Shown here piece by piece: positions 4,598-29,464 of a DNA stretch of 50,057 bases; the stretch's first letter is position 1, and each line of letters begins with the position of its first letter. Source of the stretch: an uncultured Pelagibacteraceae bacterium (GTDB lineage Bacteria > Pseudomonadota > Alphaproteobacteria > Pelagibacterales > Pelagibacteraceae). The notes under the pieces are model-generated. The model was not told the origin of the DNA. It made no database searches and saw nothing but the letters and a program-made list of their open reading frames with translations. Made by a program: the position numbers and the translations under genes. The DNA lies in NCBI GenBank assembly GCA_902581925.1, contig CACHQB010000007.1, positions 1 through 50,057 on the forward strand. The letters are read 5' to 3'.

Positions 4598-4602
4598 TAT
4601 TT

Positions 4603-5412: not shown

Positions 5413-5420
5413 ATAAAATA

Positions 5421-14484: not shown

Positions 14485-15415
14485 TTTCAGAAAGTCTTTC
14501 AAAAACTTTTTCTGCTGATAGCTTAGATAATTCAGGGGCTTGTATTGCTTTAAAATTTTCTCTTTCAATACTTACTTTAAAAGGAGTTGTGTGAGATCCA
14601 AATAAAGCAATTCCTTTTGATCCTAAATGTGCTGTCATATGTGCTGGTCCAGTATCATTTGCAACAACAAATGAACTATCTTTAATTAATGTTGCTAATT
14701 GAGAAATATCTAAAGCTTTACCATTATCTAAAACACAAAGTGCATTAATATTTGATGCTTCTTTAATTTCACTCGGTCCAGGTGCAATTACTACTTTAAA
14801 TTTGTTTTCTGATTTTTCATTAATCATAGAAATTAACTCATTATAATAAGGCCATTTCTTTGAGGTTAAATGAGGCGAACAAAATGGAAAAAGAAGAATA
14901 TATTTGTCTAATTGATGGTGATTTTTTATTTGAGATATATCTGTTGTGCTCCATGAAAAATCAGGGTTCAAAGTATGATTTGTGTTGATGCCTGAACTTT
15001 TTAATTGATAATTAAATCTAGATAGAACAGAGTCTTTATCAAAATCTTCTTTTGTGGTTCCTTCAGGTAATGTTGTGTCGGTAGATGACCAAGTATCTTT
15101 TGTTGCTTTTGGAAATAAAATTTTTTTATAAAAGGCTGTTCTGCTTGAATTCTGTAGATCGTAAACTTTAGAAAAATTATATTTTTTTATGTTTTTCATT
15201 AATGAATATAAGTAAATCAAGTTAAGTCTTGATAATCGCTTATCTAAAATAACATCAGAAATATGTGGATTTTTTTTAAATAAATCAAAGTATGGTTTGG
15301 TCGTGAGCAAATAAATTTCATCTCCTTTATGATTCTCAGAAATATCTTGAATTGCACCACAAGCTTGAGCTATATCACCCAAAGATCCATGTTTAATGAT
15401 TAAAATATTAGACAT
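14474..15415 (-). CDS. GT9-family glycosyltransferase (heptosyltransferase-like)
   Basis: A 313-residue GT-B glycosyltransferase. The N-terminal ILIIKHGSLGDIAQACGAI is the classic RFGAIGDVLL-type loop of LPS heptosyltransferases. The donor-site loop FVVANDTGPAHMTAHLGSKG with the conserved D-T/S-G-P-x-H is intact. It probably adds a sugar to lipopolysaccharide core or a related surface glycan on the cytoplasmic side. The nucleotide-sugar cannot be inferred. It is divergent from the DUF6165 gene (32 bases apart), which tends to accompany such surface-glycan genes. Confidence 0.88.
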   Translation of the reverse strand: MSNILIIKHGSLGDIAQACGAIQDISENHKGDEIYLLTTKPYFDLFKKNPHISDVILDKRLSRLNLIYLYSLMKNIKKYNFSKVYDLQNSSRTAFYKKILFPKATKDTWSSTDTTLPEGTTKEDFDKDSVLSRFNYQLKSSGINTNHTLNPDFSWSTTDISQIKNHHQLDKYILLFPFCSPHLTSKKWPYYNELISMINEKSENKFKVVIAPGPSEIKEASNINALCVLDNGKALDISQLATLIKDSSFVVANDTGPAHMTAHLGSKGIALFGSHTTPFKVSIERENFKAIQAPELSKLSAEKVFERLSEIIS

Positions 15416-15447
15416 ATTTTTAACAATTTAACATAGTATAAAATTTA

Positions 15448-15837
15448 ATGAATAAAATTATAATAGAAGTATCGGTAGGTGAGCTTTTAGACAAAATTTC
15501 AATCTTGGAAATTAAAAAAGAAAAAATTAAAGATCCTAAAAAACTAGAATTTATATCCAGCGAACATTCGATTCTTAAAGATCAGTTAGAAAAAAATGTT
15601 AAATCTGACGATAAACTAAATAAATTATTTCAAGATTTAAAAGAAATTAATGCGAAGTTGTGGGTTATAGAAGATGACAAAAGAGATTGTGAAAAAAATA
15701 AGGACTTTGGTGATAAATTTATAAAATTATCTAGAGATGTTCATTTTTTAAATGATGATCGAGCAAAAATTAAATTGGAAATGAATAATCACACTGGTTC
15801 AAGCATTAAAGAAATTAAAGAATATACTAGCTACTAA
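15448..15837 (+). CDS. DUF6165 family protein
   Basis: A 129-residue, highly charged, largely helical protein that starts with IIIEVSVGELLDKISILEIK, the signature of DUF6165. It ends with the KLSRDVHFLNDDRAKIKLEMN coiled segment. No signal peptide or membrane helix is present. Function is unknown; its place beside a GT9 glycosyltransferase suggests surface-polysaccharide work. Its end overlaps the convergent PhyH gene by 11 bases. Confidence 0.75.
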   Translation: MNKIIIEVSVGELLDKISILEIKKEKIKDPKKLEFISSEHSILKDQLEKNVKSDDKLNKLFQDLKEINAKLWVIEDDKRDCEKNKDFGDKFIKLSRDVHFLNDDRAKIKLEMNNHTGSSIKEIKEYTSY

Positions 15838-16615
15838 AAACTTTAGGAAACCAATCATCTCTCATCAAATCTCCTGTTTTTAAATTAATTCCATCAAATG
15901 GAGGTGAGGTTGGCCCTCCTCTATCAATATATTTTACATCATCTCCTATAAATCGCATTGAAAATGCTCTTCGTGATTTAGAAGAATTATTTCCTGTAGA
16001 ACCGTGTACAATTTTAAAATTAAATAAAACAGCATCCCCTAAACTTAGTTCTGGAATTAAAATATTTTTTTCAAATTCTTTTGAAGGAGGTAAATCCATA
16101 AAAGCACTATCATCATCATACCAAGATTGGTTATTTGACCATTTTGTTGGTCTAATTAACTTTGACCAATTGTGAGAACCTAAAATTAATTTAAGATTAT
16201 TTTTATTATCAACCTCATCTAATGGAATCCAAAAACTTCCAGTATTGTTACCATCAACACAATAATAAGGCATATCTTGGTGCCAAGGTGTTTCTTTGTG
16301 AGTACCTGGGCCCTTTATAAATATGTGTTCATGAAAAATTTGGGTAAATTTAGAATTAGTTGCTTCTGCAATTATCTGAGCTCCAGCTGAATTATACAAA
16401 CAATTCTTAAATTCTTCTATCCTCTCCCAATTACAATAATCCTCAAAAAATCTTCCATTATCATCAGTTACATTTTCTCTTCCGTGCTTACTTGGACTAT
16501 CTAAAACTTTTTGAAATCCTTTTCTAAGTGGTTCAATCCAATCTTTAAATATATCCTTAATTATTATTACACCATCGTTTTGATAATCACTAATTTGTTT
16601 GTCTGATAAAAACAT
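15827..16615 (-). CDS. Phytanoyl-CoA dioxygenase (PhyH) family Fe(II)/2-oxoglutarate oxygenase
   Basis: A 262-residue double-stranded beta-helix oxygenase. The iron ligands are His112 and Asp114 (TPWHQDMPYY) and the distal His204 (KIVHGSTGNN). The 2-oxoglutarate-binding Arg lies shortly after, in KSRRAFSMRF. The N-terminal YQNDGVIIIKDIF is the family opening. The substrate is unknown; bacterial members hydroxylate small metabolites such as ectoine, phosphonates or acyl chains. It lies 5 bases after the ABC permease gene on the same strand, so it may be co-transcribed with the importer. Confidence 0.88.
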   Translation of the reverse strand: MFLSDKQISDYQNDGVIIIKDIFKDWIEPLRKGFQKVLDSPSKHGRENVTDDNGRFFEDYCNWERIEEFKNCLYNSAGAQIIAEATNSKFTQIFHEHIFIKGPGTHKETPWHQDMPYYCVDGNNTGSFWIPLDEVDNKNNLKLILGSHNWSKLIRPTKWSNNQSWYDDDSAFMDLPPSKEFEKNILIPELSLGDAVLFNFKIVHGSTGNNSSKSRRAFSMRFIGDDVKYIDRGGPTSPPFDGINLKTGDLMRDDWFPKVFSS

Positions 16616-16620
16616 TATTT

Positions 16621-17295
16621 TTATTGAAAGCTGTACTTTTTCTCTAAATATTTAATCACATTATGAATAATAAAAGTCATGAACAAATAAATTCCTCCAG
16701 CAACAATAAATACTTCAATTGGTTTAAAAGTTGTTGAAATTATATATTTAGCAACACCTGTTAAATCCATTAGAGTAACTGTACTTGCAAGTGAAGTGCC
16801 TTTCATCATCAATATGATTTCATTTCCATATGCTGGAAGTGATTGTCTTATCGCAATTGGAATTTGAATTTTATAAAATATAATTTTATTTGAAATACCT
16901 AAACTTTTTCCAGCTTCAATTATTCCTGGTTTTATAGTTTGAAATGCAGATCTTAAAATTTCTGAGGTATATGCGCCAGTATTTAAAGTAAATGCTATTA
17001 TTGCACACCAATAAGGTTCTTTTAAAATAACCCAAAGGAAAGTTGTTCTTAAATACTCAATCTGTCCTAATCCAAAATAAATTATGAAAATCTGGACCAG
17101 TAATGGTGTTCCTCTAAATATATATGAATAGCCATAAGCAAATTTATTAATAAATATATTTTTATTTAATCTTAAAATTGCAAAAAAAAGACCTAGGAAT
17201 AATCCAAAGAATAAAGATGCAGATAATAATTTTAAAGTAACTACAGTTGCTACTAAAAGTTTAGGGAAACTAGTTATCATTAAATCAAAATCCAT
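16621..17295 (-). CDS. Polar amino-acid ABC permease (HisM/ArtM type)
   Basis: A 224-residue permease of the His/Glu/Gln/Arg/opine family with about five helices. The EAA loop is IEAGKSLGISNKIIFYKIQI. YSYIFRGTPLLVQIFIIYFG is the conserved RGTPLLVQ motif after the first helices. It overlaps the partner permease gene by one base. No ATP-binding subunit gene follows; the next gene is the PhyH oxygenase. Confidence 0.88.
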   Translation of the reverse strand: MDFDLMITSFPKLLVATVVTLKLLSASLFFGLFLGLFFAILRLNKNIFINKFAYGYSYIFRGTPLLVQIFIIYFGLGQIEYLRTTFLWVILKEPYWCAIIAFTLNTGAYTSEILRSAFQTIKPGIIEAGKSLGISNKIIFYKIQIPIAIRQSLPAYGNEIILMMKGTSLASTVTLMDLTGVAKYIISTTFKPIEVFIVAGGIYLFMTFIIHNVIKYLEKKYSFQ

Positions 17296-17987
17296 TAATG
17301 CCCCCTGCTATACCTAATTTCTAACTTGTTAATTAATTTCATACTCACGTAAGTAAGCAACAGATATAAAACTGCTGCAAAAGAATAAAAGAACAGTGGA
17401 TCCCGTGTTGAGCCAGCTGCAATATAAGATTGTCTCATTATTTCTACTAATCCTGTTACTGAAATAAGAGATGTGTCTTTTAATGTTATTTGCCAAACAT
17501 TGCTTAAATTTGGAATAGCTAATCTTAACATCTGGGGTAGTATTATTTTATAAAATTGCCCAAACTTATTTATGCCAAGCACCTTAGCAGCTTCAAATTG
17601 ACCTTTATCTATTGATTGAATTGCACCTCGAAATACTTCTGTTGAATAAGCTCCAGAAATAATACCTATAGCCATTGATCCTGTAACAAAAGCATTAATT
17701 TCTATATATTCATAATAACCAAAAATAGAAGCTACATACATAATTGCACCGCTTCCTCCAAAGAAGAAAAGATAAATAACTAATAGTTCAGGTACTCCAC
17801 GAATAACAGTTGTGTAAAAATTACCAACTAAATTTAAAGTTTTATATTTTGAAAGTTTTAAAGGCGTAAAAATTAATGCAAAAAAGAAACCAACCAACAT
17901 TGCTGTAATCGATACAGCAATTGTCATCAGGGTTGCGTAAAATAATTCATCACCCCAACCTGTTTTACCAAATGCGAGAAGTTCCAT
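17295..17987 (-). CDS. Polar amino-acid ABC permease (HisQ/ArtQ type)
   Basis: A 230-residue permease, partner of the 16621 gene. It shows FYTTVIRGVPELLVIYLFFFG (RGVPELL) and the EAA loop FEAAKVLGINKFGQFYKIILP. GAYSTEVFRGAIQSIDKGQ precedes the loop, as usual. The ATG has no Shine-Dalgarno and sits 6 bases after an 11-bp hairpin that follows the binding-protein gene, so it is probably translated less than that protein. Confidence 0.88.
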   Translation of the reverse strand: MELLAFGKTGWGDELFYATLMTIAVSITAMLVGFFFALIFTPLKLSKYKTLNLVGNFYTTVIRGVPELLVIYLFFFGGSGAIMYVASIFGYYEYIEINAFVTGSMAIGIISGAYSTEVFRGAIQSIDKGQFEAAKVLGINKFGQFYKIILPQMLRLAIPNLSNVWQITLKDTSLISVTGLVEIMRQSYIAAGSTRDPLFFYSFAAVLYLLLTYVSMKLINKLEIRYSRGH

Positions 17988-17993
17988 ATAGAT

Positions 17994-18018
17994 TGGCGAC
18001 TATATATTATAGTCGCCA
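17994..18018 (-). promoter_or_regulatory. Intercistronic 11-bp hairpin after the amino-acid binding-protein gene
   Basis: TGGCGACTATA (17994-18004) and TATAGTCGCCA (18008-18018) are perfect inverted repeats around a 3-base loop. In this AT-rich DNA the GGCGAC core stands out. There is no U-run, so it is probably not a terminator. Its position, between the binding-protein stop and the permease start, fits 3'-end protection of the upstream mRNA and occlusion of the downstream start. Confidence 0.75.
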
Positions 18019-18031
18019 GATCTGAAATGAA

Positions 18032-18883
18032 TTACATAGAAGCGTCGAAACCAAAGTGCTTAATAGCAAGTTTGCTAATAATTCCTTGTTTTCTAGCTTT
18101 GTTAATTGCTTTGTTGAAGTCTTTTAAGATTTTGGCATCTCTTTTTCCAATAGCGCTATCGCTAGCTTGTCTAATACCAACACCTACACCATTACCAAAC
18201 GCACCACCTGAAAAAGTTGGTCCAACTAATACAACTGACTTACCTGATTTATCTGCATAATCTGTAAATGCTACTGCTGCAGCTAAAGCAACATCGCATC
18301 TTCCAGAAGTTAGATCAAGGTTAACTTCATCTTGAGTTTTATAAGTTCTAACATTTACACTTCCTACGTCACCTGACTCTAAAAAGTTTTGGTGAATTGT
18401 TCCTGTTTGAGTACAGACAGTTTTGCCAGCAAGTGCGCTTGTTAAAGTTTTAAGAGCTTTCTTAACATCAGATCCACCTAATGATAAATTAATACCTTCT
18501 GGTGTATCCATTCCCTCTAAGCTTGAGCCTTTCATTACTGCAAGAGAAGCTACTTCATCAGCATAACCTTGTGAAAAAGTAATTGTTTTTTGTCTTTCAG
18601 CAGTAATAGACATTCCAGCCATAATCGCATCAAATTTTCTCATTACTAAAGCCGGTATCATTCCGTCCCAATCTTGTTCAACAATCGTACACTCATATTT
18701 CATGATCGCACAAAGTTCTTGAGCAAGCTCGACCTCAAAACCAATAAGATTACCTGATGCATCTTTTGAATTCCATGGAGGGTAAGCGCCTTCAGTTCCA
18801 ATTTTTATTTTTTCAGCAGAAACATTTCCAATGATAAATAAAGAAGCAAGAACTGTTAAAATAGTTTTTTTGAATATATTCAT
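18032..18883 (-). CDS. Periplasmic amino-acid-binding protein (family 3; Lys/Arg/Orn- or opine-like)
   Basis: A 283-residue protein with a signal peptide (about 1-23, ending NVSAEKI). The family 3 pattern is GTEGAYPPWN, GNLIGFEVELAQEL, then DWDGMIPALVMRKFDAIMAGMSIT. The Asp-x-x-GMIPAL and M-S-I-T-xER segments bind the alpha-amino and carboxyl groups in this family. KTVCTQTGTIHQNFLES corresponds to the second-domain ligand loop. The closest known types import basic amino acids or opines, but specificity is inferred. AAAGGAG lies 8 bases before the ATG. The gene follows speDE after 59 bases on the same strand. Confidence 0.87.
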   Translation of the reverse strand: MNIFKKTILTVLASLFIIGNVSAEKIKIGTEGAYPPWNSKDASGNLIGFEVELAQELCAIMKYECTIVEQDWDGMIPALVMRKFDAIMAGMSITAERQKTITFSQGYADEVASLAVMKGSSLEGMDTPEGINLSLGGSDVKKALKTLTSALAGKTVCTQTGTIHQNFLESGDVGSVNVRTYKTQDEVNLDLTSGRCDVALAAAVAFTDYADKSGKSVVLVGPTFSGGAFGNGVGVGIRQASDSAIGKRDAKILKDFNKAINKARKQGIISKLAIKHFGFDASM

Positions 18884-18942
18884 TATTTTCTCCTTTAATT
18901 AGGAATAATTATTTCACAAATTCAAATAAGAAAAAAGAAAAA

Positions 18943-19983
18943 TTAATGATTTATTGAAGAAGAAAAATTCCAAGAGCAATCAAAACTAGGTATGTAAACT
19001 CTAGATAATTTTGCATTTCCAAAGTTTTGATTAAAAACATTTAGCCAATTTTCAACCTGTTGTGGTTTTTTGTCCTGACTTCCCACTTGTGCTGTAATAA
19101 CTCCTTTTGGTTTTAATATTCTAACTAGAGAGTCCATATTTTTTGCAGCTAAATCTATGCAAAATTGATCATCATTTAAATCAACAAAAATATGATCATA
19201 ACTGTCATCACTTACTGATTTAATACTTTCAAATGCATCACCCCAAACACATTTAACTGAATTTTTTTCAGTTGCTTTCTTTCCAATATCACCAAGATGT
19301 TTATTGCAAACATCTACTACTTCTGGATCAAGCTCGTACCAATCAATAAAATTAAATTTTTTAGAAATACATTCTCTTGCTACTCCACCGTCACCACCAC
19401 CTATTATAGCAGCTCTATCATTATCTTGATTTAAATTTAAACCAGAGCCTACAAATGTTGAGCTATATAAATGTTCGTCTGTTGCTGCAACTTGGATTTC
19501 ACCATCAATAAATAAAGATTTTCCAAACTGTTCTAAGTCTAAAATTTCAATATGCTGACCAACTTTAGATTTAAAATCCTCTAATACATCATTTACTACG
19601 TAAGATTTTTGTAAACCTGGTGTGCTATAAATATCGTGATACAAACATTTTGTATCTCTATTAAATTCTTTTTTGACTATTCTTTTATATTCAAATTCTT
19701 TTTTTATAATATCAATCGCAACTGAAGGACTTATTTTTCCACATGTAAAAAAATCGAAACTAATGATTCCTTTTTCTGGAAAAGTATGAAAACTAATATG
19801 ACTTTCGGCTAATAATGCCAATATTGTAAATCCTTGAGGTTCAAATTTATATTTTGATATATTTAGAATTGTTACTTTTGCAGCTTTTGCAATTTCATGA
19901 ATTACTTTTTCAAATACAGATGGATCGTATTCTTTTGTGGTGCCGATAATGTCTAGAGTTATATGCTCTCCAACTTTAGTCAT
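18943..19983 (-). CDS. speDE: Fused S-adenosylmethionine decarboxylase-spermidine synthase (SpeD-SpeE)
   Basis: This 346-residue protein joins two enzymes. Residues 1-~118 are a prokaryotic SpeD: the self-cleavage site is Glu60-Ser61 (LLAESHISFHTFPE), with His66 and Cys81 (FFTCG) at the expected proton-donor and processing positions. Residues ~119-346 are an aminopropyltransferase: FGKSLFIDGEIQVAATDEHLY, the dcAdoMet site IIGGGDGGVARE (193-204), DWYELDPEVV, and D268-x-x-D271 as catalytic acids. The usual PxGP after the catalytic Asp pair is replaced (DLNDDQFC), so the gate loop differs and the amine acceptor may too. Cleavage would give a small beta chain and a pyruvoyl alpha chain carrying the synthase. 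The gene lies 3 bases after the aldolase gene. Confidence 0.9.
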   Translation of the reverse strand: MTKVGEHITLDIIGTTKEYDPSVFEKVIHEIAKAAKVTILNISKYKFEPQGFTILALLAESHISFHTFPEKGIISFDFFTCGKISPSVAIDIIKKEFEYKRIVKKEFNRDTKCLYHDIYSTPGLQKSYVVNDVLEDFKSKVGQHIEILDLEQFGKSLFIDGEIQVAATDEHLYSSTFVGSGLNLNQDNDRAAIIGGGDGGVARECISKKFNFIDWYELDPEVVDVCNKHLGDIGKKATEKNSVKCVWGDAFESIKSVSDDSYDHIFVDLNDDQFCIDLAAKNMDSLVRILKPKGVITAQVGSQDKKPQQVENWLNVFNQNFGNAKLSRVYIPSFDCSWNFSSSINH

Positions 19984-19986
19984 TGG

Positions 19987-20628
19987 TTATCCTTTTTTAT
20001 AATACTTTGTCTTGGATAAAACTTTTTTCATTTCTTTAACTGAAAGAATCTTTGGCTTACCCAATTTAAGGCTCGTTATATACTGAAGTGATAGATTTTC
20101 AACCTCTTCGGCTAATTCAAAAGCTTTTGATAAATTTGTTTCAAATGCAATCTGTCCGTGATTTGAAATTAAACAAGCTTTACGACCTTTTAATGCTTTC
20201 AAAATATTTTTTGATAAATCTCTAGTTCCAAAAGTTGCATATTTTGCACATTTGATGTCATGGCCTCCTGCCATAGCTACCATATAATGAAATGCTGGAA
20301 TTCCTCTCTTGTGGGTAGAAACTGCTGTTGCATTTGTTGAATGAGCATGAACAATTGCTTCAGCATCTTTTTTATTCTTGTAAATATCTTGATGAAATTG
20401 CCATTCTGAAGATGGAATACCTTTTTCTTTATTATATCTTCCTTCTAAGGACACAAAAACAATATCGTTATTTTTTAATGAAGAATATTTTTTTCCAGAT
20501 GGTGTAATTAAGAAACCATCCTTATATCTGACAGATATATTTCCAGACCTAAGAGCAGATAACTTTGTGCTATTAAGCTTTTTTGAATATTTGATTATTT
20601 CAGCCTTTATTTTGCTCATTAAAAACAT
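19987..20628 (-). CDS. FucA-like class II aldolase, candidate 5-methylthioribulose-1-phosphate aldolase
   Basis: A 213-residue zinc aldolase of the class II aldolase/adducin family, very like E. coli L-fuculose-1-phosphate aldolase throughout. The phosphate-binding SGNISVR and TPSGKKY are present. Glu75 (PSSEWQFH) and His94, His96 and His157 (VHAHS, SNHGQ) match FucA Glu73, His92, His94 and His155 with a constant offset. HYMVAMAGGHDIKCAKYATF also aligns. It is 3 bases upstream of speDE, and mtnA and mtnP lie nearby. In the known DHAP shunt a FucA-like aldolase splits methylthioribulose-1-phosphate into DHAP and methylthioacetaldehyde, so that role is likely. Fuculose phosphate or MtnB-type dehydration are alternatives. 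ATGs at codons 1 and 4 both work. Confidence 0.82.
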   Translation of the reverse strand: MFLMSKIKAEIIKYSKKLNSTKLSALRSGNISVRYKDGFLITPSGKKYSSLKNNDIVFVSLEGRYNKEKGIPSSEWQFHQDIYKNKKDAEAIVHAHSTNATAVSTHKRGIPAFHYMVAMAGGHDIKCAKYATFGTRDLSKNILKALKGRKACLISNHGQIAFETNLSKAFELAEEVENLSLQYITSLKLGKPKILSVKEMKKVLSKTKYYKKG

Positions 20629-20672
20629 GTTGATTTTAACTTAATTTAAGATGAGACTATAGAAAATTTAAA

Positions 20673-22034
20673 ATGGCTGATACAATAAAATATTTCTTAG
20701 AAGAGAGCAAAATGCCGAAGACTTGGTATAACATTGCTGCTGATTTACCAAAACCTATGGAACCTCCGCTACATCCAGGTACTTTAAAACCGATTGGACC
20801 AGATGATCTAGCACCTTTATTTCCAATGGCTTTAATTGGTCAAGAAGTTTCTCAGGATAGAGAAATAGAAATACCTGAGCCAGTTAGAGAAATTTATAAA
20901 CAGTGGAGACCATCGCCATTATACAGAGCAAGAAAATTAGAAAAACATTTAGATACCCCAGCAAAAATTTATTACAAATACGAGGGTGTTAGTCCTTCTG
21001 GTAGTCACAAACCTAATACAGCTGTAGCACAAGCATTTTATAATAAAGAAGAAGGTACAAAAAAAATAACTACAGAAACTGGTGCTGGTCAATGGGGAAC
21101 CTCGTTAGCATTTGCATGTAAATTATTTGGAATTGAGTTAGATGTTTATATGGTAAAAGTAAGTTTTGAACAAAAACCATATAGAAAACTTGTTATGCAA
21201 ACTTATGGAGCAAGATGTGTTGCAAGTCCATCTAATGAAACGGATAGTGGTAAAGCAATTATAGCAAAAGATCCAAATAACACTGGAAGTTTAGGTATAG
21301 CAATTTCAGAGGCAGTTGAAATGGCTGCAAAAAATCCTGATACAAAATATGCATTAGGAAGTGTTTTAAATCATGTTTTAATGCACCAAACTATTGTTGG
21401 AAATGAAGCTTTACTTCAAATGGAAATGGCAGATGATTATCCAGACATTTTAGTTGGATGTACAGGTGGTGGAAGTAATTTTTCAGGATTAGCAAATCCT
21501 TTCTTAGGAAAAAATTTTAGAGAAGGAAAGAAAACAAGGGTTATTGCATGTGAACCTAAGTCTTGTCCTACTTTAACTGAAGGTAAATATGTTTATGATT
21601 TTGGTGATACTGGTAAATTAACACCATTAGTAAAAATGCATACACTTGGATCCCAATTTATTCCTCCAGCTACACATTCAGGAGGTTTAAGGTATCATGG
21701 AATGGCTCCGTTGGTTAGCCACCTAAAAGAAATTAATGCTCTAGAAGCAAAAGCATATGGTCAAAAAGAATGTTTTGAAGCAGGAGTAAATTTTGCAAGA
21801 ACAGAAGGTATAGTTCCTGCGCCAGAAGCAACCCACGCAGTTAAAGGTGCAATTGATGCAGCATTAGAATGTAAGAAAAAGGGTGAGTCAAAAACAATAT
21901 TATTCAATTTATGTGGTCATGGTCATTTTGATATGAAAGCATATGGAGATTACTTTGAGGGAAATCTAGCAGAAGATAAATTTGATAAAGGAAGTATGGA
22001 TAAAGCATTAGAAGACCTTCCAAAAATTGCCTAA
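20673..22034 (+). CDS. TrpB2-type tryptophan synthase beta-like PLP enzyme
   Basis: A 453-residue fold-type II PLP enzyme. The PLP lysine is Lys113 in PSGSHKPNTAVAQ, and the cofactor phosphate site is VGCTGGGSNFSG. TTETGAGQWGTSLAFACKLF is the beta-subunit substrate loop. The long N-terminus with LPKPMEPPLHPGTLKPIGPD is characteristic of the TrpB2 subgroup rather than TrpB1. No trpA is adjacent. Some TrpB2 enzymes have been shown to use O-phosphoserine and indole. A DUF1015 gene follows after 8 bases. The start ATG is 44 bases from the divergent aldolase start. Confidence 0.88.
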   Translation: MADTIKYFLEESKMPKTWYNIAADLPKPMEPPLHPGTLKPIGPDDLAPLFPMALIGQEVSQDREIEIPEPVREIYKQWRPSPLYRARKLEKHLDTPAKIYYKYEGVSPSGSHKPNTAVAQAFYNKEEGTKKITTETGAGQWGTSLAFACKLFGIELDVYMVKVSFEQKPYRKLVMQTYGARCVASPSNETDSGKAIIAKDPNNTGSLGIAISEAVEMAAKNPDTKYALGSVLNHVLMHQTIVGNEALLQMEMADDYPDILVGCTGGGSNFSGLANPFLGKNFREGKKTRVIACEPKSCPTLTEGKYVYDFGDTGKLTPLVKMHTLGSQFIPPATHSGGLRYHGMAPLVSHLKEINALEAKAYGQKECFEAGVNFARTEGIVPAPEATHAVKGAIDAALECKKKGESKTILFNLCGHGHFDMKAYGDYFEGNLAEDKFDKGSMDKALEDLPKIA

Positions 22035-22042
22035 TTAATAAT

Positions 22043-23128
22043 TTGAGTCTTATAAATCCATTTAAAGCTCTACGGCCAATCCAGAGGCTAGCAAGTAGAA
22101 TTTCAACTCCAAATCCAAAATATTTTAATAGTTTAAAATCATATCCAAAATTTGGTTATTTAAAGATTTTAACTAGCAAAAACCTTATTCAATCAAAAAA
22201 ATATTTTGCAAATATGAAGAATAAAAAACTGATAACTAAAGAAAGTAAAGACTCTTATTATATTTATAAAATATCCGATAAAAACCACCAACAAATTGGG
22301 ATACTGGGTAAAATAGATTTAAAGAATTACGACAATAAAAATATTTTAGGGCATGAAGAAACTTTTAAAAATAGAGTTTTAGAAAGAAAGAAGCAGATAT
22401 TAAATATTTCAACTCAACTAGGTCCAATTTATACAGCTTATAAATACAACAAATACCTTCAAAATTTCTTAATTAAAGTCACAAAATCAAAGCCAATTTA
22501 TTCATTTAAATCATTAGACAAATTTAATCATCAAGTATGGATTGTCGAGAGAGAGAAAAATTTAAAAAATTTTATTAAAAAAATTAATAAAATATATATT
22601 TGTGATGGTCATCATAGAATGCAAGGAATGCTTAAAAGTAATAAAAAAATATCCCCAATGATTATTGCTTTTCCCCATAATCAAATAAAAATTTTAGATT
22701 ATAATAGAGTATTAAAAACTAATTTAAGTAGAGAAAAAATTATTAATATAATCAGCAAGAATTTTAAAATTAAAAAAATTAAAAATAACTCAAAAAGTTT
22801 AAAAAAAGGTTTATTAGAAATGTATATGAGTAATCAGTGGTATTTACTCAAACAAATCAAAAAAAATAATAAATTAGATGTAACTATTCTTCATGAGAAT
22901 ATTATCAGTAAAATTAAAGCTACTAAAATCGATTTTATTTCAGGTATTAATGGTTCAAATCGTCTTAAAAAATTAGTAAATTCAAAAAAGTTTAATATAG
23001 CTTTTAAACTTAGCCCTACAAATATATCAAGTGTTATGAGGATTGCAGATAAAAAAAGATTTATGCCACCAAAATCAACCTGGTTTCATCCTAAACCTTT
23101 AGATGGGTTAATTTCTTCTGAATTATAA
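22043..23128 (+). CDS. DUF1015 family protein
   Basis: A 361-residue basic protein. Family landmarks are INPFKALRPI at the N-terminus, the GHEETFKNRVLERKKQIL helix followed by STQLGPIYTAY, YICDGHHRMQGM (the conserved DGHHR), and MPPKSTWFHPKPLDGL near the C-terminus. The start is TTG at 22043, 8 bases after the TrpB2 stop, so the two are coupled. The middle is unusually rich in Lys, Asn and Ile. I recall a DUF1015 member being described as a free-serine kinase; this is not verified here. It overlaps the convergent asparaginase gene by 6 bases. Confidence 0.82.
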   Translation: MSLINPFKALRPIQRLASRISTPNPKYFNSLKSYPKFGYLKILTSKNLIQSKKYFANMKNKKLITKESKDSYYIYKISDKNHQQIGILGKIDLKNYDNKNILGHEETFKNRVLERKKQILNISTQLGPIYTAYKYNKYLQNFLIKVTKSKPIYSFKSLDKFNHQVWIVEREKNLKNFIKKINKIYICDGHHRMQGMLKSNKKISPMIIAFPHNQIKILDYNRVLKTNLSREKIINIISKNFKIKKIKNNSKSLKKGLLEMYMSNQWYLLKQIKKNNKLDVTILHENIISKIKATKIDFISGINGSNRLKKLVNSKKFNIAFKLSPTNISSVMRIADKKRFMPPKSTWFHPKPLDGLISSEL

Positions 23129-24100
23129 CACAAATTTCATTTTCCCTATTTTTTGACCCACAGAATTTGTCACTTCGCTAGATTTAATTTTTGCTAATTC
23201 ATTTTCATCTATAACATTTAATTCAGAAATTAATCCCGCTATTGCAGTTTCAGCTGCCCTTGCTGCTCCGTCTAAAATTTTAACTACTAATGCAGATCTA
23301 ATTTCAGGTATTAGTGCCAAAAATACTCCTTCAGCACCATTTTTAAAGAATATTTTTTTTTTAGAAAGTTTTGTTAAGATGCAATTAACGCTATTAGTGC
23401 CTCCAGTTATTTCTGGAAAATTAACACATGAATTAAAAATTTTTTTTGCTATATCTGTATTTTCATTTAATATTTTACTATCCATCAATCGAGAAGCTGC
23501 TAATGCAAATTTTTTTAAAGGCATGAATGGATTGGGAAGAGTACAACCGTCAATTCCAATATTTTTTATCTTAAAGTCTGATAGATCTTCAACTAATTGA
23601 ATTAAATCCTTTTGTAACGGATGTGTTTTTTCGTGATAATTTTCTAAAGTTAAGTTTTTATATTTACATACTGCAAGGTGTCCACAATGTTTCCCCGAAC
23701 AATTATGATAAATCCTTCTTTTTGTTTTATTTTCTAATTTCACTTTAAATTTATCCTCTAAATTCCAAGGCCAATCATATCCACATGAAAGATTTTCTTC
23801 ATTAATATTAATTTTTTTTAACCAACTAGAAATAATCTCCTGATGAAATTTTTCTGCATGATGTGACGCTGTAGTAATTGCAATTTGTTCTTCGCTGAGA
23901 TTCATAGAATCTGCAACGCCATCCTTATAAAGATTTAGAGTTTGAATTGGTTTTAATGCTGATCTTGGGTAAATATTTAAGTCTGAATTACCCCACTCTT
24001 TTAAAATATTTCCTGATGAATTAATTAATACTGCTACACCTTGATGAAAACTTTCTATTTCACCACTTCTTGTAACTTCAACCATTTTTAAAGATTCCAT
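23123..24100 (-). CDS. L-asparaginase, Rhizobium etli ReAV type (PF06089)
   Basis: A 325-residue cytosolic hydrolase unrelated to the E. coli asparaginases. The catalytic Ser47-x-x-Lys50 pair is in YPRSALKPIQ. The zinc-site residues are Cys134 and Lys137 (YHNCSGKHCGH) and Cys186 (GIDGCTLP), close to the Cys135, Lys138, Cys189 set of R. etli ReAV. It converts asparagine to aspartate and ammonia. The ATG at 24098-24100 is used; an ATG five codons in is possible. It lies 4 bases after mtnA on the same strand. Confidence 0.9.
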   Translation of the reverse strand: MESLKMVEVTRSGEIESFHQGVAVLINSSGNILKEWGNSDLNIYPRSALKPIQTLNLYKDGVADSMNLSEEQIAITTASHHAEKFHQEIISSWLKKININEENLSCGYDWPWNLEDKFKVKLENKTKRRIYHNCSGKHCGHLAVCKYKNLTLENYHEKTHPLQKDLIQLVEDLSDFKIKNIGIDGCTLPNPFMPLKKFALAASRLMDSKILNENTDIAKKIFNSCVNFPEITGGTNSVNCILTKLSKKKIFFKNGAEGVFLALIPEIRSALVVKILDGAARAAETAIAGLISELNVIDENELAKIKSSEVTNSVGQKIGKMKFVL

Positions 24101-24104
24101 ATAA

Positions 24105-25178
24105 CTACTTATTAAATAATTTTTTTAAACCTTCAGTTGATGCTTCACAAATCCCTTTTTCTGTAATTAAATTAGTAACATATTTTGCTGGAGTCACATC
24201 GAATGCTAAATTCATTACCTTGCTTTTCTTAGGATATATCAAAACTTTCTTAACTTGATTTTTTTCATCAACGCCCTCAACATGAGATAATTCCTCTGAA
24301 TTTCTCTCTTCTATTGGAATATCTTTTGCATCTTTAATGTTCCAATCTATTGTAGAGCTTGGCAGAGTAACATAAAATGGAACATTATTATCACGAGCAG
24401 ATAGTGCTTTTAGATAAGTTCCAATTTTATTACATACATCCCCATTGGATAAAGTTCTATCAGTTCCTACAATACACATATCAACCTCACCTCGCTGCAT
24501 TAGAATTCCTCCAGTATTATCAGCAATGATTGTATTCGGAACTTCTTCCTCATTTAATTCATATGAAGTTAAATTTGCACCTTGATTTCTGGGCCTTGTT
24601 TCATCCACCCATACATGAACTGGAATTCCTTTTTTATGGGCATGATAAATGGGTGAAGTTGCTGTTCCCCAATTAATAGTAGCTAACCATCCAGCATTAC
24701 AATGAGTTAATATGTTAATTGTATCTTTTTTTTTATTGAAAATTTCTTCAATTATTTTTAGTCCATTAATGCCAATATTTTCACAAAATTTTTCGTCTTC
24801 ATCGCATATCTCTTTAGCTTCTTTTAAAGCTATATTTAAAATTTGATCACTATTAATACCTGATAATTTTTTCATTATGCGATCTACTGCCCATTTTAAA
24901 TTAATTGCAGTAGGTCTTGATCGAATTAATTCTTCAGCACTTTTCTTTATAAATTGTAAATCATTATTTTCTTTTACTGCTAAAACTATACCGTAAGCAG
25001 CTGTTGCTCCTATTAAAGGAGCTCCTCTTACTTCCATTGCTTTAATAGCATTTATTGCATCCTTTACTGTCTTTAATTCTTTAATTACAAATTTATGAGG
25101 AAGTTTGGTTTGATTAATTATTTTAACAACATTTCCCTCGTACCATATTGTTCGATATTCTTTTCCTTCTATTTTCAT
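24105..25178 (-). CDS. mtnA: S-methyl-5-thioribose-1-phosphate isomerase MtnA
   Basis: A 357-residue aldose-ketose isomerase of methionine salvage that converts methylthioribose-1-phosphate to methylthioribulose-1-phosphate. The substrate loop RGAPLIGATAAYG (51-63), catalytic Cys160 (ILTHCNAGWLA) and Asp240 (IVGTDRTLSNGD) are all present at the same numbers as in Bacillus MtnA. DETRPRNQGANLT, AKYVTNLITEKG and FDVTPAKY follow the family. MtnP, which makes its substrate, is encoded just upstream on the same strand with one secreted hydrolase between. Confidence 0.95.
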   Translation of the reverse strand: MKIEGKEYRTIWYEGNVVKIINQTKLPHKFVIKELKTVKDAINAIKAMEVRGAPLIGATAAYGIVLAVKENNDLQFIKKSAEELIRSRPTAINLKWAVDRIMKKLSGINSDQILNIALKEAKEICDEDEKFCENIGINGLKIIEEIFNKKKDTINILTHCNAGWLATINWGTATSPIYHAHKKGIPVHVWVDETRPRNQGANLTSYELNEEEVPNTIIADNTGGILMQRGEVDMCIVGTDRTLSNGDVCNKIGTYLKALSARDNNVPFYVTLPSSTIDWNIKDAKDIPIEERNSEELSHVEGVDEKNQVKKVLIYPKKSKVMNLAFDVTPAKYVTNLITEKGICEASTEGLKKLFNK

Positions 25179-25184
25179 TAAAAA

Positions 25185-25991
25185 TTATCCCTGTTCTTCA
25201 ATATATTTTTTTATAATTTTTTTTGTTTCATTAATTCTGCAATCTTTTCTATACGTATTGTGACCCTCTCCACATTTGTAAGCTATGATATTAACCGTAT
25301 CTGGTGATTTATCCTTAAGAAACATAAGTTCTTTTAATCTATTAAATTTATCATCTTCATATGCAAAAATAAGAGCTTTAATAAAATCTGCTTCTTGTAT
25401 CTGCTTAACTTGCTTAGGTCTAATTTCCTTTCTCCATATTGGATATTTATTAATTTCATGTCTCGGTCCACAACATGCTGGAGCAAAAACAATTGCTGAA
25501 TTAAATTTTTTCCCTACTTTTGGCATCAACATAAGCGAAGACCAGCCTCCCGCAGAAACTCCTGAAAGAAAAATATTTTTAGGCTTGATGCCATTATCTA
25601 ATAATTGATCTAAAACATTTTCAATTTCATTAACTCTTTTTCCAATATAAGACCCAGATTTATTTCCATCAGTTGCTTTAGAACACAAATAATAAAAGAA
25701 AGTATTATCACTTTCAGTTAAACTTAATAAGGAATTTGGAATAGCGTTATATTTTCTTTTACATTTTTCTTTTTTTTGGGGCCTAGTTGTTCCGTGAGAA
25801 AATATTATAATTTTTATATTTTCTGAATTATTTAAGCTTATATTTGGTGTTTTTCCTTTATAAGATTTTGAAATTGGTTGTAAATTAAATTTATTCTTCT
25901 CTTTATCAATAACAAATCCACTTAGGTTTTTTGAGTAAGAATAAGAATTAAATAAAAAGAAAATTAAAATTGTATAAATTATTTTTTTCAT
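25185..25991 (-). CDS. Secreted alpha/beta hydrolase, substrate unknown
   Basis: A 268-residue protein with a signal peptide (about 1-20, ending SYSK). The fold's landmarks are IIIFSHGTTRP (oxyanion strand and loop), nucleophile elbow GVSAGGW, a likely acid in FAYEDDKFN, and catalytic His in GEGHNTY. Several Cys pairs suit the periplasm. The ATG overlaps the mtnP stop (ATGA), and mtnA begins 6 bases after its stop, so it sits inside the MTA-salvage operon. No metabolic role there is obvious. It could be an esterase, lipase or peptidase. Confidence 0.75.
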   Translation of the reverse strand: MKKIIYTILIFFLFNSYSYSKNLSGFVIDKEKNKFNLQPISKSYKGKTPNISLNNSENIKIIIFSHGTTRPQKKEKCKRKYNAIPNSLLSLTESDNTFFYYLCSKATDGNKSGSYIGKRVNEIENVLDQLLDNGIKPKNIFLSGVSAGGWSSLMLMPKVGKKFNSAIVFAPACCGPRHEINKYPIWRKEIRPKQVKQIQEADFIKALIFAYEDDKFNRLKELMFLKDKSPDTVNIIAYKCGEGHNTYRKDCRINETKKIIKKYIEEQG

Positions 25992-26860
25992 TTATTTAAA
26001 ACTCTTCCAGCTACAGTTTTAAGTTTATCTATTGTTTTTTGTGTTCTTTTTTCTGGAGCTGTAATTATAGCTACATCCAAACAATTATTTGTAGGATCTT
26101 TTGGATCAATATGATTTTCAAAATTTTCAACTAAATTTTTAATCATATTTTTTGCTTTCTCAGCATTTCCTAATAGAACTTTAATTACTTGTTGCACATC
26201 AACATTTTCATGATCTGGATGCCAACAATCATAATCAGTTACCATTGAAACTGAAGCGTATCTAATTTCAGCTTCTCTTGCTAATTTTGCTTCAGGCATA
26301 TTTGTCATTCCAATTACATCTGCTTTCCAAGATTTATACAAATTAGACTCTGCTAATGTAGAAAATTGAGGCCCTTCCATAACTACATATGTTCCATTTC
26401 TTTGATAGTCTATGTTTGATTTTTTAATTGCTTCTTCACATGCATTCATTAATCCGTTAGAGGTTGGGTGAGCCATTGACACATGAGCAACAATCTCATC
26501 ATCAAAGAAAGTTTTATTTCTTGCAAAAGTCCTATCAATAAATTGATCAACAATTACAAATTTTCCAGGAGGTAAATTTTCTTTAAGAGAACCAACAGCT
26601 GATACGGAAACAACATCTGTTACACCTAATTGTTTTAGAGCATCTATGTTTGCTCTAAAATTTATATTTGAAGGAGAAACAAAATGCCCTCTTCCATGTC
26701 TTGGTAAAAAATAAACTTCCTTACTGTTATATTTAGTTTTTAAAATCTGATCAGAAGGTTTACCCCAAGGTGTTTGTAAATCTATTAACTCTCTTTCTTT
26801 GAATTCTTCAATATCATAAAGACCACTACCACCAATTATTGCCAATTTATTTGTTGTCAT
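25988..26860 (-). CDS. mtnP: S-methyl-5'-thioadenosine phosphorylase MtnP
   Basis: A 290-residue purine-nucleoside-phosphorylase-family enzyme that splits methylthioadenosine with phosphate into adenine and methylthioribose-1-phosphate. The phosphate site is AIIGGSGLYD, and LPRHGRGHFVSPSNINFRAN is the ribose/phosphate loop. MEGPQFSTLAES and MTNMPEAKLAREAEI discriminate MTAP from ordinary PNP. VSMVTDYDCW provides the adenine-recognising Asp. It is the first gene of the minus-strand run with the secreted hydrolase, mtnA and asparaginase, and is divergent from apt, which recycles its adenine product. Confidence 0.95.
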   Translation of the reverse strand: MTTNKLAIIGGSGLYDIEEFKERELIDLQTPWGKPSDQILKTKYNSKEVYFLPRHGRGHFVSPSNINFRANIDALKQLGVTDVVSVSAVGSLKENLPPGKFVIVDQFIDRTFARNKTFFDDEIVAHVSMAHPTSNGLMNACEEAIKKSNIDYQRNGTYVVMEGPQFSTLAESNLYKSWKADVIGMTNMPEAKLAREAEIRYASVSMVTDYDCWHPDHENVDVQQVIKVLLGNAEKAKNMIKNLVENFENHIDPKDPTNNCLDVAIITAPEKRTQKTIDKLKTVAGRVLNK

Positions 26861-26901
26861 ACTTAAAAAATTATTTATTTATACTTTTATATTTAACTAT
26901 T

Positions 26902-27429
26902 ATGAATTTAAAAGATTATATTAGATCTATTCCTGATTATCCAAAAAAAGGTATTTTATTTAGAGATATAACAACCCTAATTAAAGATGAAAATGCATTT
27001 GAAGAAACGATTAACCAAATTATTGAAAGATCAAAAAAATATAATTTTACAAAAATAGCAGCTATTGAGTCAAGAGGTTTTGTATTTGCATCAGCTGTTT
27101 CGTTTGTTCTTAAAAAACCATTTATTATGCTTAGAAAAAAAAATAAGTTACCCGCAGATGTTCACTCGGTAGATTTTGAGCTTGAATATGGAACCGCAAC
27201 GATTGAAGTCCATAAAGATTCTATAAATGAAAAAGATGAAGTTTTAATTATAGATGATTTAATTGCAACTGGGGGTACAGCTGAAGCAGCAGCAAAATTA
27301 GTAGAGATATCAAAAGGTAGAGTTGCTGCATTTGTGTTTGTAATAAACCTTTTTGATCTAGGTGGATCAGATAATCTAGTAAAAAGTAATTATAAAGTTG
27401 AGAATTTAATTGAATTTCCAGGGCATTAG
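26902..27429 (+). CDS. apt: Adenine phosphoribosyltransferase
   Basis: A 175-residue enzyme that makes AMP from adenine and PRPP. I use the ATG at 26902 (MNLKDYIRSIPDYPKKGILF), which matches the usual Apt N-terminus; an upstream TTG would add a 21-residue hydrophobic tail overlapping mtnP. FRDITTLI, IESRGFVFASAVSF, LRKKNKLPA and the PRPP loop VLIIDDLIATGGTAEAA are all present. It is divergent from mtnP, 41 bases away, which fits adenine recycling. Confidence 0.94.
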   Translation: MNLKDYIRSIPDYPKKGILFRDITTLIKDENAFEETINQIIERSKKYNFTKIAAIESRGFVFASAVSFVLKKPFIMLRKKNKLPADVHSVDFELEYGTATIEVHKDSINEKDEVLIIDDLIATGGTAEAAAKLVEISKGRVAAFVFVINLFDLGGSDNLVKSNYKVENLIEFPGH

Positions 27430-27442
27430 AAAGTAAAAAAAC

Positions 27443-27451
27443 TTATCCACA
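27443..27451 (+). promoter_or_regulatory. Perfect DnaA-box sequence between apt and guaC
   Basis: TTATCCACA matches the high-affinity DnaA consensus exactly and lies in the 71-base gap upstream of guaC. No second box, AT-rich unwinding region of note, or origin-associated gene is visible nearby, so an origin is not claimed. It could tie guaC expression to DnaA, or be a chance site. Confidence 0.4.
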
Positions 27452-27480
27452 GGCTATATAATGTTTGAAATAAATTATTA

Positions 27481-27497
27481 TGATTATAACTTAATCA
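27481..27497. promoter_or_regulatory. Inverted repeat upstream of guaC
   Basis: TGATTA and TAATCA flank a 5-base spacer, ending 3 bases before the guaC ATG. It could be an operator or an mRNA leader hairpin. AT-rich 6-mers occur by chance, so confidence is low. Confidence 0.25.
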
Positions 27498-27500
27498 TCA

Positions 27501-28535
27501 ATGAGAATTGAAGAAGAGCTTAAGTTAGATTATTCAGATGTGCTTTTTAGGCCCAAAAGAAGTACCTTAAAAAGCCGTAAAGACGTAAATCTTTTAAGAA
27601 CATACAGATTCAAATACAGCAAAAATGAATGGTCTGGTATTCCAATAATGGCAGCAAATATGGATGGGGTTGGAGAACTGAGTGTTGCTGAAAAATTAAA
27701 CGAATATGGAATGATTACTTCCTTAACAAAACAACACGATGTTAAAAAAATCAAACAAAATAAAAATATTAAAAAAATCTATCCTAATATCGCACTTAGT
27801 GTTGGTATTAAAAAAGAAGATTTTCAAAATTTAGATAAAGTTTTAAAAGAATTTAGTTTTTTTAAATTTATTTGTATTGATGTTGCAAATGGGTACACAG
27901 AACATTTTACCAATTTTATTAAATCAGTAAGAGATAAATATCCAACTAAAACAATAATTGCAGGTAATGTTGTAACAGCTGATATGACTCAAGAATTAGT
28001 TCTAAGCGGAGCAGACATTGTTAAAGTTGGAATTGGACCTGGAAGTGTTTGTACAACAAGAATTCAAACTGGAGTTGGTTATCCGCAATTAAGTGCAGTA
28101 ATCGAATGTGCTGATGCTGCTCATGGACTTGGTGCGCATGTAATTGCAGATGGTGGATGCACTTGTCCTGGTGATGTTGCTAAAGGTTTTGGAGGTGGTG
28201 CTGATTTTGTAATGCTTGGAGGTATGTTAGCAGGACATGATGAAGGAAAAGGTAAAATTGTTAAAGTTAATGGAGAAAAATATATAGAGTTTTACGGATC
28301 TAGTTCTGAAGTTGCTAATAAAAAACACTACGGAGGACTATCCGATTATCGAAGTAGTGAAGGAAGAAAAGTAAGAGTCAAATATAGAGGAAAAATAAAC
28401 GACACTATTTTAAATATTCTTGGAGGTGTAAGGAGCAGTTGTACTTATGTTGGTGCACCTTCGCTTAAACAATTAAGTAAATGTACTACCTTCGTTAGAG
28501 TTTCTAGTCAATTTAATGATAGTTTAATTAAATAA
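27501..28535 (+). CDS. guaC: GMP reductase
   Basis: A 344-residue IMPDH/GMPR-family TIM barrel that reduces GMP to IMP with NADPH. The N-terminus MRIEEELKLDYSDVLFRPKR is close to E. coli GuaC. There is no CBS insert, which excludes IMPDH. The catalytic Cys184 is in GPGSVCTTRIQTGVGYPQ; YGSSSEVA and GGVRSSCTYVGA complete the pattern. It abuts the convergent phosphoribosyltransferase stop with no spacing. Confidence 0.94.
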   Translation: MRIEEELKLDYSDVLFRPKRSTLKSRKDVNLLRTYRFKYSKNEWSGIPIMAANMDGVGELSVAEKLNEYGMITSLTKQHDVKKIKQNKNIKKIYPNIALSVGIKKEDFQNLDKVLKEFSFFKFICIDVANGYTEHFTNFIKSVRDKYPTKTIIAGNVVTADMTQELVLSGADIVKVGIGPGSVCTTRIQTGVGYPQLSAVIECADAAHGLGAHVIADGGCTCPGDVAKGFGGGADFVMLGGMLAGHDEGKGKIVKVNGEKYIEFYGSSSEVANKKHYGGLSDYRSSEGRKVRVKYRGKINDTILNILGGVRSSCTYVGAPSLKQLSKCTTFVRVSSQFNDSLIK

Positions 28536-29054
28536 TCATTTTTCAAACTTAAAATCTTTTATATTTGTAGTTTCATATTTCTCAAAAGGCATATGTATCC
28601 AAGGAGAGTCTTTTAAATAATCTACACAATAATCAGGTTTAAATTTTGAAGTTGATTTGTGCCATATAACTGCAGTTTTAATTTTTTCATCTAAATAAAA
28701 TCCGTAAAAATGCTCTAACCATTTAATACTTTTTATTAAAGTTTTTCCAGAGTCTGCTAAATCATCAACTAACAAAACATGTGAACCTAAATTTGGAGTG
28801 GTTTTCGCTAAATCTCTTGAAAAAGTAAACTGTCCTTGTTGTTTTTTAATATCATCACTATCACCATGATAAGATTCTACAGATAAAATTGCTAAAGGGA
28901 CATTGAAAAGTCTACTAAAAACATCTCCTACTCTTAATCCACCTTTTGCAATACAAATAATTTGATTAAATTTAAAGTTATCCTCATAAACTTTTTTAGC
29001 TAATTGCTCAATTTTTTTATGATAATCTTCCCAAGTTATATAAATATCTTTCAT
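28536..29054 (-). CDS. Phosphoribosyltransferase (purine base type)
   Basis: A 172-residue PRTase-fold enzyme. The PRPP-binding loop is VLLVDDLADSGKTL, preceded by ICIAKGGLRVGDVFSRLF and SVESYHGD. It resembles the xanthine/hypoxanthine-type PRTases near Gpt and COG2236, which convert a purine base and PRPP to the nucleotide. I start at the ATG 29052-29054 (MKDIYITWEDY). A longer frame reading back through the tRNA gene is rejected. Only 6 bases separate the ATG from the tRNA CCA, and there is no ribosome site. Confidence 0.85.
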   Translation of the reverse strand: MKDIYITWEDYHKKIEQLAKKVYEDNFKFNQIICIAKGGLRVGDVFSRLFNVPLAILSVESYHGDSDDIKKQQGQFTFSRDLAKTTPNLGSHVLLVDDLADSGKTLIKSIKWLEHFYGFYLDEKIKTAVIWHKSTSKFKPDYCVDYLKDSPWIHMPFEKYETTNIKDFKFEK

Positions 29055-29060
29055 AATTTT

Positions 29061-29137
29061 TGGTAGCGGGAAGTGGGATCGAACCACTGACCTCGGGCTT
29101 ATGAGTCCCGCGCTCTAACCAACTGAGCTACCCCGCC
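29061..29137 (-). tRNA. tRNA with CAU anticodon (elongator tRNA-Met; tRNA-Ile2 not excluded)
   Basis: A complete 77-base cloverleaf with encoded CCA. The acceptor arms close with G1-U72 and G7-U66 wobbles, the D-arm is GCTC/GAGC, and the anticodon loop is CTCATAA. The T-arm is AGTGG/CCACT with loop TTCGATC. The C11-G24 pair and a paired position 1-72 rule out the initiator. The last pair of the anticodon stem, 31-39, is A-G and therefore mismatched. A lysidine-modified tRNA-Ile2 also has CAT in its gene and cannot be distinguished here. Confidence 0.93.
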
Positions 29138-29206
29138 TTAATTGATAAATGGTTTATAATATAAATCTTTATTGTTTCAATAAACTTTTTTAAATCAAAT
29201 TCTAAA

Positions 29207-29416: not shown

Positions 29417-29464
29417 AGTTCATTTAAACAGCTAATTAACTTAAATACAATAAATTAAAATTAA

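Follow-up and report, generated by a model that had tools for sequence, protein, structure and literature searches.

The dihydroxyacetone phosphate (DHAP) shunt, in which S-methyl-5'-thioadenosine (MTA) is processed by MtnP (or MtnN plus MtnK), MtnA and the aldolase Ald2, has been established experimentally in Rhodospirillum rubrum, Rhodopseudomonas palustris and Escherichia coli, as described in the available parts of PMC5893883, PMC10986504 and PMC12632272. According to these excerpts, the MTA sulfur is returned via Ald2 in R. palustris (PMC5893883) and is not returned in E. coli (PMC10986504). A fused AdoMet (S-adenosylmethionine) decarboxylase and spermidine synthase, SpeDE, is likewise known from SAR11 bacteria (Pelagibacterales): the accessible portion of PMC8437039 cites earlier work on it, and contains no discussion of the neighbours of the gene or of the fate of MTA. 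The present analysis concerns a stretch of 50,057 nucleotides (hereafter the window) of contig CACHQB010000007.1, from an uncultured Pelagibacteraceae bacterium (assembly GCA_902581925.1), in which a gene for a FucA-like class II aldolase immediately precedes speDE. This aldolase is very probably Ald2 and would act as the final shared step of a DHAP shunt (MtnP-MtnA-Ald2) disposing of the MTA made by SpeDE, and across SAR11 the gene beside speDE, which may be any of three, probably serves to dispose of this sulfur by-product of spermidine synthesis.

In the window, the SpeD-SpeE fusion (AdoMet decarboxylase plus aminopropyltransferase, 18943-19983, minus strand, 346 aa, with PF02675 AdoMet_dc over residues 7-109 and PF01564 Spermine_synth over residues 170-340) is the predicted source of MTA. 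As described in an earlier note on this DNA, its ATG is separated by a spacer of three bases (19984-19986, minus strand) from the stop codon of the aldolase, a candidate 5-methylthioribulose-1-phosphate / 5-deoxyribulose-1-phosphate aldolase (19987-20628, minus strand, 213 aa, PF00596). Both open reading frames (ORFs) are intact. The mtnP and mtnA genes that the note placed nearby are present as well, both on the minus strand and both above their NCBIfam cut-offs, MtnA (S-methyl-5-thioribose-1-phosphate isomerase) at 24105-25178 (TIGR00512, 418.9 bits for a cut-off of 279) and MtnP (S-methyl-5'-thioadenosine phosphorylase) at 25988-26860 (NF006492, 449.3 for 437; TIGR01694, 314.8 for 274.85). 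SpeDE would thus yield spermidine and MTA, MtnP would convert MTA into adenine and methylthioribose-1-phosphate, MtnA would isomerize the latter to methylthioribulose-1-phosphate, and the aldolase would cleave this product into DHAP and 2-(methylthio)acetaldehyde, while 5'-deoxyadenosine entering the same enzymes would give DHAP and acetaldehyde. The adenine set free by MtnP would be recycled by adenine phosphoribosyltransferase, whose gene (apt, 26902-27429, plus strand; TIGR01090, 195.7 bits for 185.85) flanks the exchangeable position described below and is a neighbour in many relatives; its start at 26902 was inferred from relatives of 175 aa, the listed ORF beginning at 26839. No aldehyde dehydrogenase or reductase was recognised at the window's locus, genome-wide candidates not having been surveyed.

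The reading of this locus as a DHAP shunt, already proposed in the earlier note, gains its support from comparative genomics. Protein searches with the aldolase and SpeDE in an order-wide sample of 167 SAR11 genomes, including the window's own, retrieved the aldolase in 80 (79 of the 125 of best quality) and SpeDE in 103. The pairing of the two genes, as suggested from the window alone, is conserved throughout: in all 80 aldolase genomes, speDE follows the aldolase directly and in the same orientation, an adjacency that is therefore not due to chance. The distance is about 1-15 bp in 78 of them and 137-138 bp in two (L123 in genome G001, L124 in G007), so that speDE may have its own promoter there. 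MtnA was found in 97 genomes and MtnP in 94; among the 80 aldolase genomes, MtnA is present in 79, the exception (G036) being a genome in which a contig begins with the aldolase gene, and MtnP in 76; in all four without a match (G036, G070, G114 and G117), a contig end interrupts the locus. Of the 79 genomes with both genes, 69 have mtnA immediately upstream of the aldolase (same strand, gap of at most 250 bp), and 45 have mtnP, mtnA, aldolase and speDE in an unbroken row by the same limit. The window's genome belongs to the 79 and not to the 69, with a gap of about 3.5 kb between mtnA and the aldolase that, given the prevalent arrangement, represents a local insertion.

The association also holds from the side of MtnA, since an aldolase of either kind (the FucA-like enzyme or the aldolase-dehydrogenase fusion presented below) occurs in 96 of the 97 MtnA-positive genomes versus one of the 70 MtnA-negative ones (G036 again), the FucA-like enzyme in 79 and the fusion in 17 of the 97, and never both. 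The exception among the 97 is G144, 92% complete, which has MtnP and MtnA and no speDE match; in this genome, a sulfatase-like ORF, named by eye, stands directly after mtnA (L109, 6619-8202), where most others have the gene in question. A search for relatives of the aldolase found 97, of which 80 named loci were kept. Eighteen of these have an identity of no more than 53%, and the names SAR11 and Pelagibacter appear in the titles of none of the 18 (L063, with Proteobacteria as its only title and 77% identity, was counted on the SAR11 side); mtnA lies within 1 kb upstream of the aldolase in 16 of these 18. Nine genomes of the window's family (G054, G080, G086, G111, G123, G125, G139, G146 and G157) matched neither speDE nor the salvage genes, a co-absence that was not used as evidence because the genes are adjacent and assembly gaps could explain it.

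What takes the place of the FucA-like aldolase in the other MtnA-positive genomes? Seventeen of the 18 that lack it carry a fusion of about 677 aa, made up (in the two of the 17 that were scanned) of a class II aldolase and a short-chain dehydrogenase, which was found in none of the 80 aldolase genomes and in none of the 70 MtnA-negative ones. In all 14 fusion genomes with speDE, the two genes are immediate neighbours in head-to-head orientation, with about 85-105 bp between them, and in three genomes of a sister family (G010, G083 and G100) without speDE the fusion lies beside mtnA, with the order mtnP-mtnA-fusion on one strand in G010 and G083. The protein passes the NF006192 model (bifunctional aldolase/short-chain dehydrogenase; 905.6 for a cut-off of 639) and fails the RhaD_aldol-ADH equivalog TIGR02632 (442 for 567.75). 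In an alignment of 29 sequences (the 17 of the order and 12 of the 39 found in the class, see below), residues E125, H139, H141, H200, D461, S562, Y575 and K579 (numbering of the L097 protein, encoded at 4189-6222), which we take to be key active-site positions of the two domains, are invariant in all 29; they include an Asp in the NAD-binding fold, presumably the usual residue at that position in NAD-binding enzymes of this fold. In a class-wide sample of 235 genomes, of which three are SAR11, such a fusion was called in 39, with an E-value of 1e-100 as the upper limit. It follows mtnA directly and in the same orientation in 19 of the 39 and lies within 5 kb of it in three; mtnA is elsewhere in 14 and had no match in three. 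A fusion directly downstream of mtnA was seen in six of the 12 alphaproteobacterial loci retrieved from outside SAR11 (L208, L209, L211, L214, L215 and L217). The fusion is thus a likely salvage enzyme, and its members could be annotated as rhamnose enzymes; if the salvage role is right, Mtn-linked enzymes of the RhaEW type across Alphaproteobacteria would serve the salvage of AdoMet by-products, not rhamnose.

A third gene occurs in 12 of the 167 genomes and encodes a short MtnN-like nucleosidase (175-178 aa in the three read). None of these 12 genomes matches MtnP, MtnA, the aldolase or the fusion, and wherever speDE is present, as it is in eight of the 12, the nucleosidase gene immediately precedes it, with apt on its other side (for example at L111 6253-6780, L113 4850-5380 and L117 4768-5304). 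The protein passes the PF01048 cut-off and, in L111, remains below those of NCBIfam (NF004168, 95.8 versus 129; TIGR01704, 47.8 versus 73.8). The three alternatives together (80 + 14 + 8) account for 102 of the 103 speDE genes, each of which has a gene for one candidate MTA enzyme at its side; the remaining speDE (G109) starts at base 143 of its contig. The single-aldolase picture of the earlier note is supported for the window and incomplete for its relatives, in which this place can be taken by either of two further genes, never found together with the aldolase or with each other. These data suggest an exchangeable "MTA slot" beside speDE, the fusion acting as an oxidative branch of the shunt that would turn methylthioribulose-1-phosphate into DHAP, (methylthio)acetate and NADH, the aldehyde being oxidised with NAD+ on the same polypeptide; we give this combined proposal an even chance of being correct. 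The nucleosidase would replace the whole shunt and leave methylthioribose as waste, and the form in which the methylthio group leaves a SAR11 lineage (aldehyde or alcohol, acid, or methylthioribose) would then depend on the occupant of the slot.

The state of the slot appears to have switched repeatedly. In a tree of speDE from 101 genomes, of which 100 have a known slot state (G118 and G145, with cut speDE, were dropped), parsimony requires at least 12 changes. Many forks of this tree are weakly supported, but all 1000 bootstrap trees gave the figure of 12; shuffled labels (200 sets on one tree) gave 19-22 changes versus the observed 12, and when the aldolases of the window's clade are scored as a state separate from the other aldolases (G141 omitted), the number rises to 17-21. 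The history of the aldolase is discordant with that of speDE: in G161, SpeDE is 97% identical to that of the window and the aldolase only 65-68%, and in a group of 11 genomes (g5), SpeDE is 61-64% and the aldolases 70-73% identical to those of the window. Repeated replacement by recombination is the likely cause of this switching.

Several other explanations of the aldolase have to be considered. L-fuculose-phosphate aldolases provide both the top NCBIfam matches of the protein (221 bits for residues 6-210, below the cut-off) and its top PDB matches, and it could in principle be an ordinary aldolase of L-fuculose-1-phosphate or another sugar-1-phosphate in sugar catabolism, lying beside speDE by chance. 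It fails the FucA equivalog TIGR01086 (201.6 bits versus 400.25), and the genes to which it is linked are mtnA and speDE. FGGY-type kinases are the family of fuculokinase and rhamnulokinase; matches occur in 106 of the 167 genomes, the only one in the window's genome being a glycerol kinase, and none was found in near-complete aldolase genomes such as G003, G017, G024 and G048, which makes a fuculose role unlikely. In line with other SAR11 genomes, an LD12 genome paper (PMC6018831), in the part available, states that genes for the use of fucose, fuculose or rhamnose were not found annotated. The missing kinases and the linkage led to the rejection of this explanation, which we consider very improbable. 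Even less credible is that the gene encodes MtnB, the methylthioribulose-1-phosphate dehydratase of classical methionine salvage, which belongs to the same superfamily: the match to TIGR03328 salvage_mtnB has an E-value of 1.5e-18, but amounts to 67 bits over residues 27-108 for a cut-off of 137, far from the score of the fuculose-aldolase model, and acireductone dioxygenase (ARD, mtnD), a later enzyme of that pathway, exceeded its cut-off in none of the 167 genomes; the MtnB assignment was rejected on these two grounds. The aldolase is the sole PF00596 gene found in the window's genome, the only genome in which mtnB was searched; of the classical Mtn genes that the earlier note had not seen, none was found among those tested. 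PF00016, the model for RuBisCO and its relatives, among them MtnW and the MTA-isoprenoid shunt enzyme, had no match in the 167 genomes either, with 5 of 14 control genomes positive; an MTA-isoprenoid shunt or MtnW was rejected on this basis.

Two further explanations accept the enzymes and question what flows through them. The shunt might, in the role known for DrdA, work chiefly on the 5'-deoxyadenosine that radical-SAM enzymes release, with MTA as a minor substrate, as would suit the FucA-like DrdA of Bacillus thuringiensis, which prefers acetaldehyde according to the part of PMC6079011 at hand, and also the three sister-family genomes with a fusion by mtnA and no speDE. The constant contact of the aldolase with speDE, the presence of an MTA-type enzyme beside every speDE gene but the one at a contig end, and the scores of MtnP and MtnA above the MTA and methylthioribose-1-phosphate equivalog cut-offs all speak against it, and we regard it as unlikely; MTA and 5'-deoxyadenosine may nevertheless be handled together. 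For the sulfur, the question is evenly poised: the pathway would recycle adenine and DHAP only, the methylthio aldehyde, alcohol or acid being lost, or the sulfur would be recovered. Loss agrees with the absence of any candidate methanethiol-releasing step seen at the locus, and with the nucleosidase that stands in place of the shunt in some SAR11 species, for which sulfur recovery by the shunt is thus dispensable. SAR11 cells, which are among the most abundant in the sea, depend on reduced sulfur, a need that would favour recovery, and the view from the locus leaves aside downstream genes elsewhere in the genome, which were not surveyed. The precedents diverge in the same way, as E. coli with a DHAP shunt cannot salvage MTA sulfur (PMC10986504), whereas R. 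palustris makes methanethiol from MTA aerobically via Ald2 (PMC5893883), in both cases according to the parts of these papers available.

Returning to the aldolase as Ald2, the protein itself is compatible with this function. Its nearest named relatives are from Pelagibacteraceae (the top one, L012, at 96% identity), and in an alignment of 97 rows (79 SAR11 and 18 others, the cut aldolase of G141 being dropped) the positions aligned with E73, H92, H94, Y113 and H155 of E. coli FucA, which we take to be the metal ligands and the catalytic Glu and Tyr, are identical in 79 of 79 SAR11 and 18 of 18 other rows. At some positions, at least 93 of the 97 rows share a residue other than that of E. coli FucA, the one FucA sequence compared; T43S and I111F, for instance, each occur in all 97. 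A quick tree separates the 79 SAR11 aldolases from the 18 others with a Shimodaira-Hasegawa-like approximate likelihood ratio (SH-aLRT) support of 100, several of the 18 being long branches. A number of observations weigh on the other side. The aldolase misses all the displayed NCBIfam cut-offs and shares 99 of 204 aligned residues with E. coli FucA, an identity at which the fold is evident, and its sequence cannot separate methylthioribulose-1-phosphate from deoxyribulose-1-phosphate or other sugar phosphates, because the FucA-like family is promiscuous towards aldehydes, as stated in the accessible part of PMC6079011. Spermidine synthesis is not the sole possible source of substrate, given the fusions that lie beside mtnA in genomes without speDE, and no mtnA was seen in the available flanking DNA of two of the 18 distant relatives (L074 and L084). 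The window's own genome is incomplete (33 contigs, 83% complete). For ARD there is one sub-threshold match (G007), and the search exceeded its cut-off in only two of 14 control genomes, with a weaker match in three more; no classical salvage marker was found among those tested, mtnC, mtnX and mtnK not having been searched.

The surroundings of the slot in the window comprise genes of other kinds. Between the aldolase and mtnA lie a TrpB-like pyridoxal phosphate enzyme (20673-22034, plus strand; TIGR01415, 625.6 bits for 518.85), a DUF1015 protein (22043-23128, plus strand, PF06245) and an asparaginase II-like protein (23123-24100, minus strand, PF06089), and between mtnA and mtnP an alpha/beta-hydrolase-like ORF (25185-25991, minus strand) with a weak PF02230 match (23.7 bits for 23). 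The TrpB-like and DUF1015 pair stands beside the slot in two genomes, at 20673-23128 of the window, in the aldolase state, and at 4143-6613 of L103, in the fusion state, where the TrpB-like gene lies between mtnA and the slot gene. Downstream of speDE, a family-3 solute-binding protein of the lysine/arginine/ornithine type (18032-18883, minus strand, PF00497; TIGR01096, 223.6, below 256.35) is a possible supply for putrescine; it forms, with two permease-like ORFs and a dioxygenase-like ORF (these latter named by eye), the segment 15827-18883, and its gene is kept in many, though not all, relatives, whatever the slot occupant. An Rfam scan of positions 15000-30000 at the gathering cut-off found no riboswitch or other RNA except one tRNA, at 29064-29137, close to purine salvage genes, and a scan of the loci of seven relatives found no riboswitch and only three tRNAs; a SAM-V riboswitch is mentioned for Pelagibacter in the available part of PMC4239095. 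Promoter and terminator scans of 17900-20900 were not above shuffled sequences (10 versus a mean of 13.6, and 0 versus a mean of 1.3, respectively).

Taken together, these comparisons point to a specific and testable MTA pathway for much of SAR11, MTA being made with every spermidine, and to one locus that would give three answers to the same chemical problem, each replacing the others repeatedly, with possible consequences for the volatile or dissolved organic sulfur released by different SAR11 lineages. The DHAP shunt, the FucA-like Ald2/DrdA enzymes and the SAR11 SpeDE fusion are known already, and what is new is the slot with the fused enzyme. In the literature searched, as far as the texts were available, neither a Pelagibacter DHAP shunt nor another SAR11 route for MTA was found described, although a 2020 survey of the distribution of the shunt may list SAR11, nor was the fusion found described as a salvage enzyme or as an oxidative shunt to (methylthio)acetate.

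How, then, does this locus compare with the described systems? Judged by its genes, it would be a member of the DHAP shunt of R. rubrum, R. palustris and E. coli, with the same enzyme set (in the MtnP variant), an aldolase of the FucA type, and no ARD or RuBisCO-like branch detected in SAR11. It differs from the shunt elsewhere in that the SAR11 operon is joined to the MTA-producing speDE, in that these streamlined genomes showed no other MTA route among those tested, and in that the aldolase can give way in its slot to an aldolase fused with a dehydrogenase or to an MtnN-like protein. The DrdK-DrdI-DrdA system of B. thuringiensis also clusters a FucA-like aldolase with an MtnA-like isomerase, but uses a kinase where SAR11 has the phosphorylase MtnP and the linkage to spermidine synthesis. 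SpeDE in the window is the AdoMet decarboxylase-spermidine synthase fusion of the known SAR11 kind. The second slot occupant shares the two-domain architecture of RhaEW (L-rhamnulose-1-phosphate aldolase / L-lactaldehyde dehydrogenase), of which the Chloroflexus aurantiacus enzyme works with NAD+ and not with NADH according to the part of PMC3870299 available, and departs from it by scoring below TIGR02632, by its position beside mtnA and speDE, and by its presence in a genome (G107) in which no FGGY kinase was found. The third occupant resembles the MTA/S-adenosylhomocysteine nucleosidase MtnN (Pfs) in matching MtnN-type models, and differs from it in its length of 175-178 aa, in its scores below the NCBIfam cut-offs, and in taking the place of mtnP, mtnA and the aldolase together.

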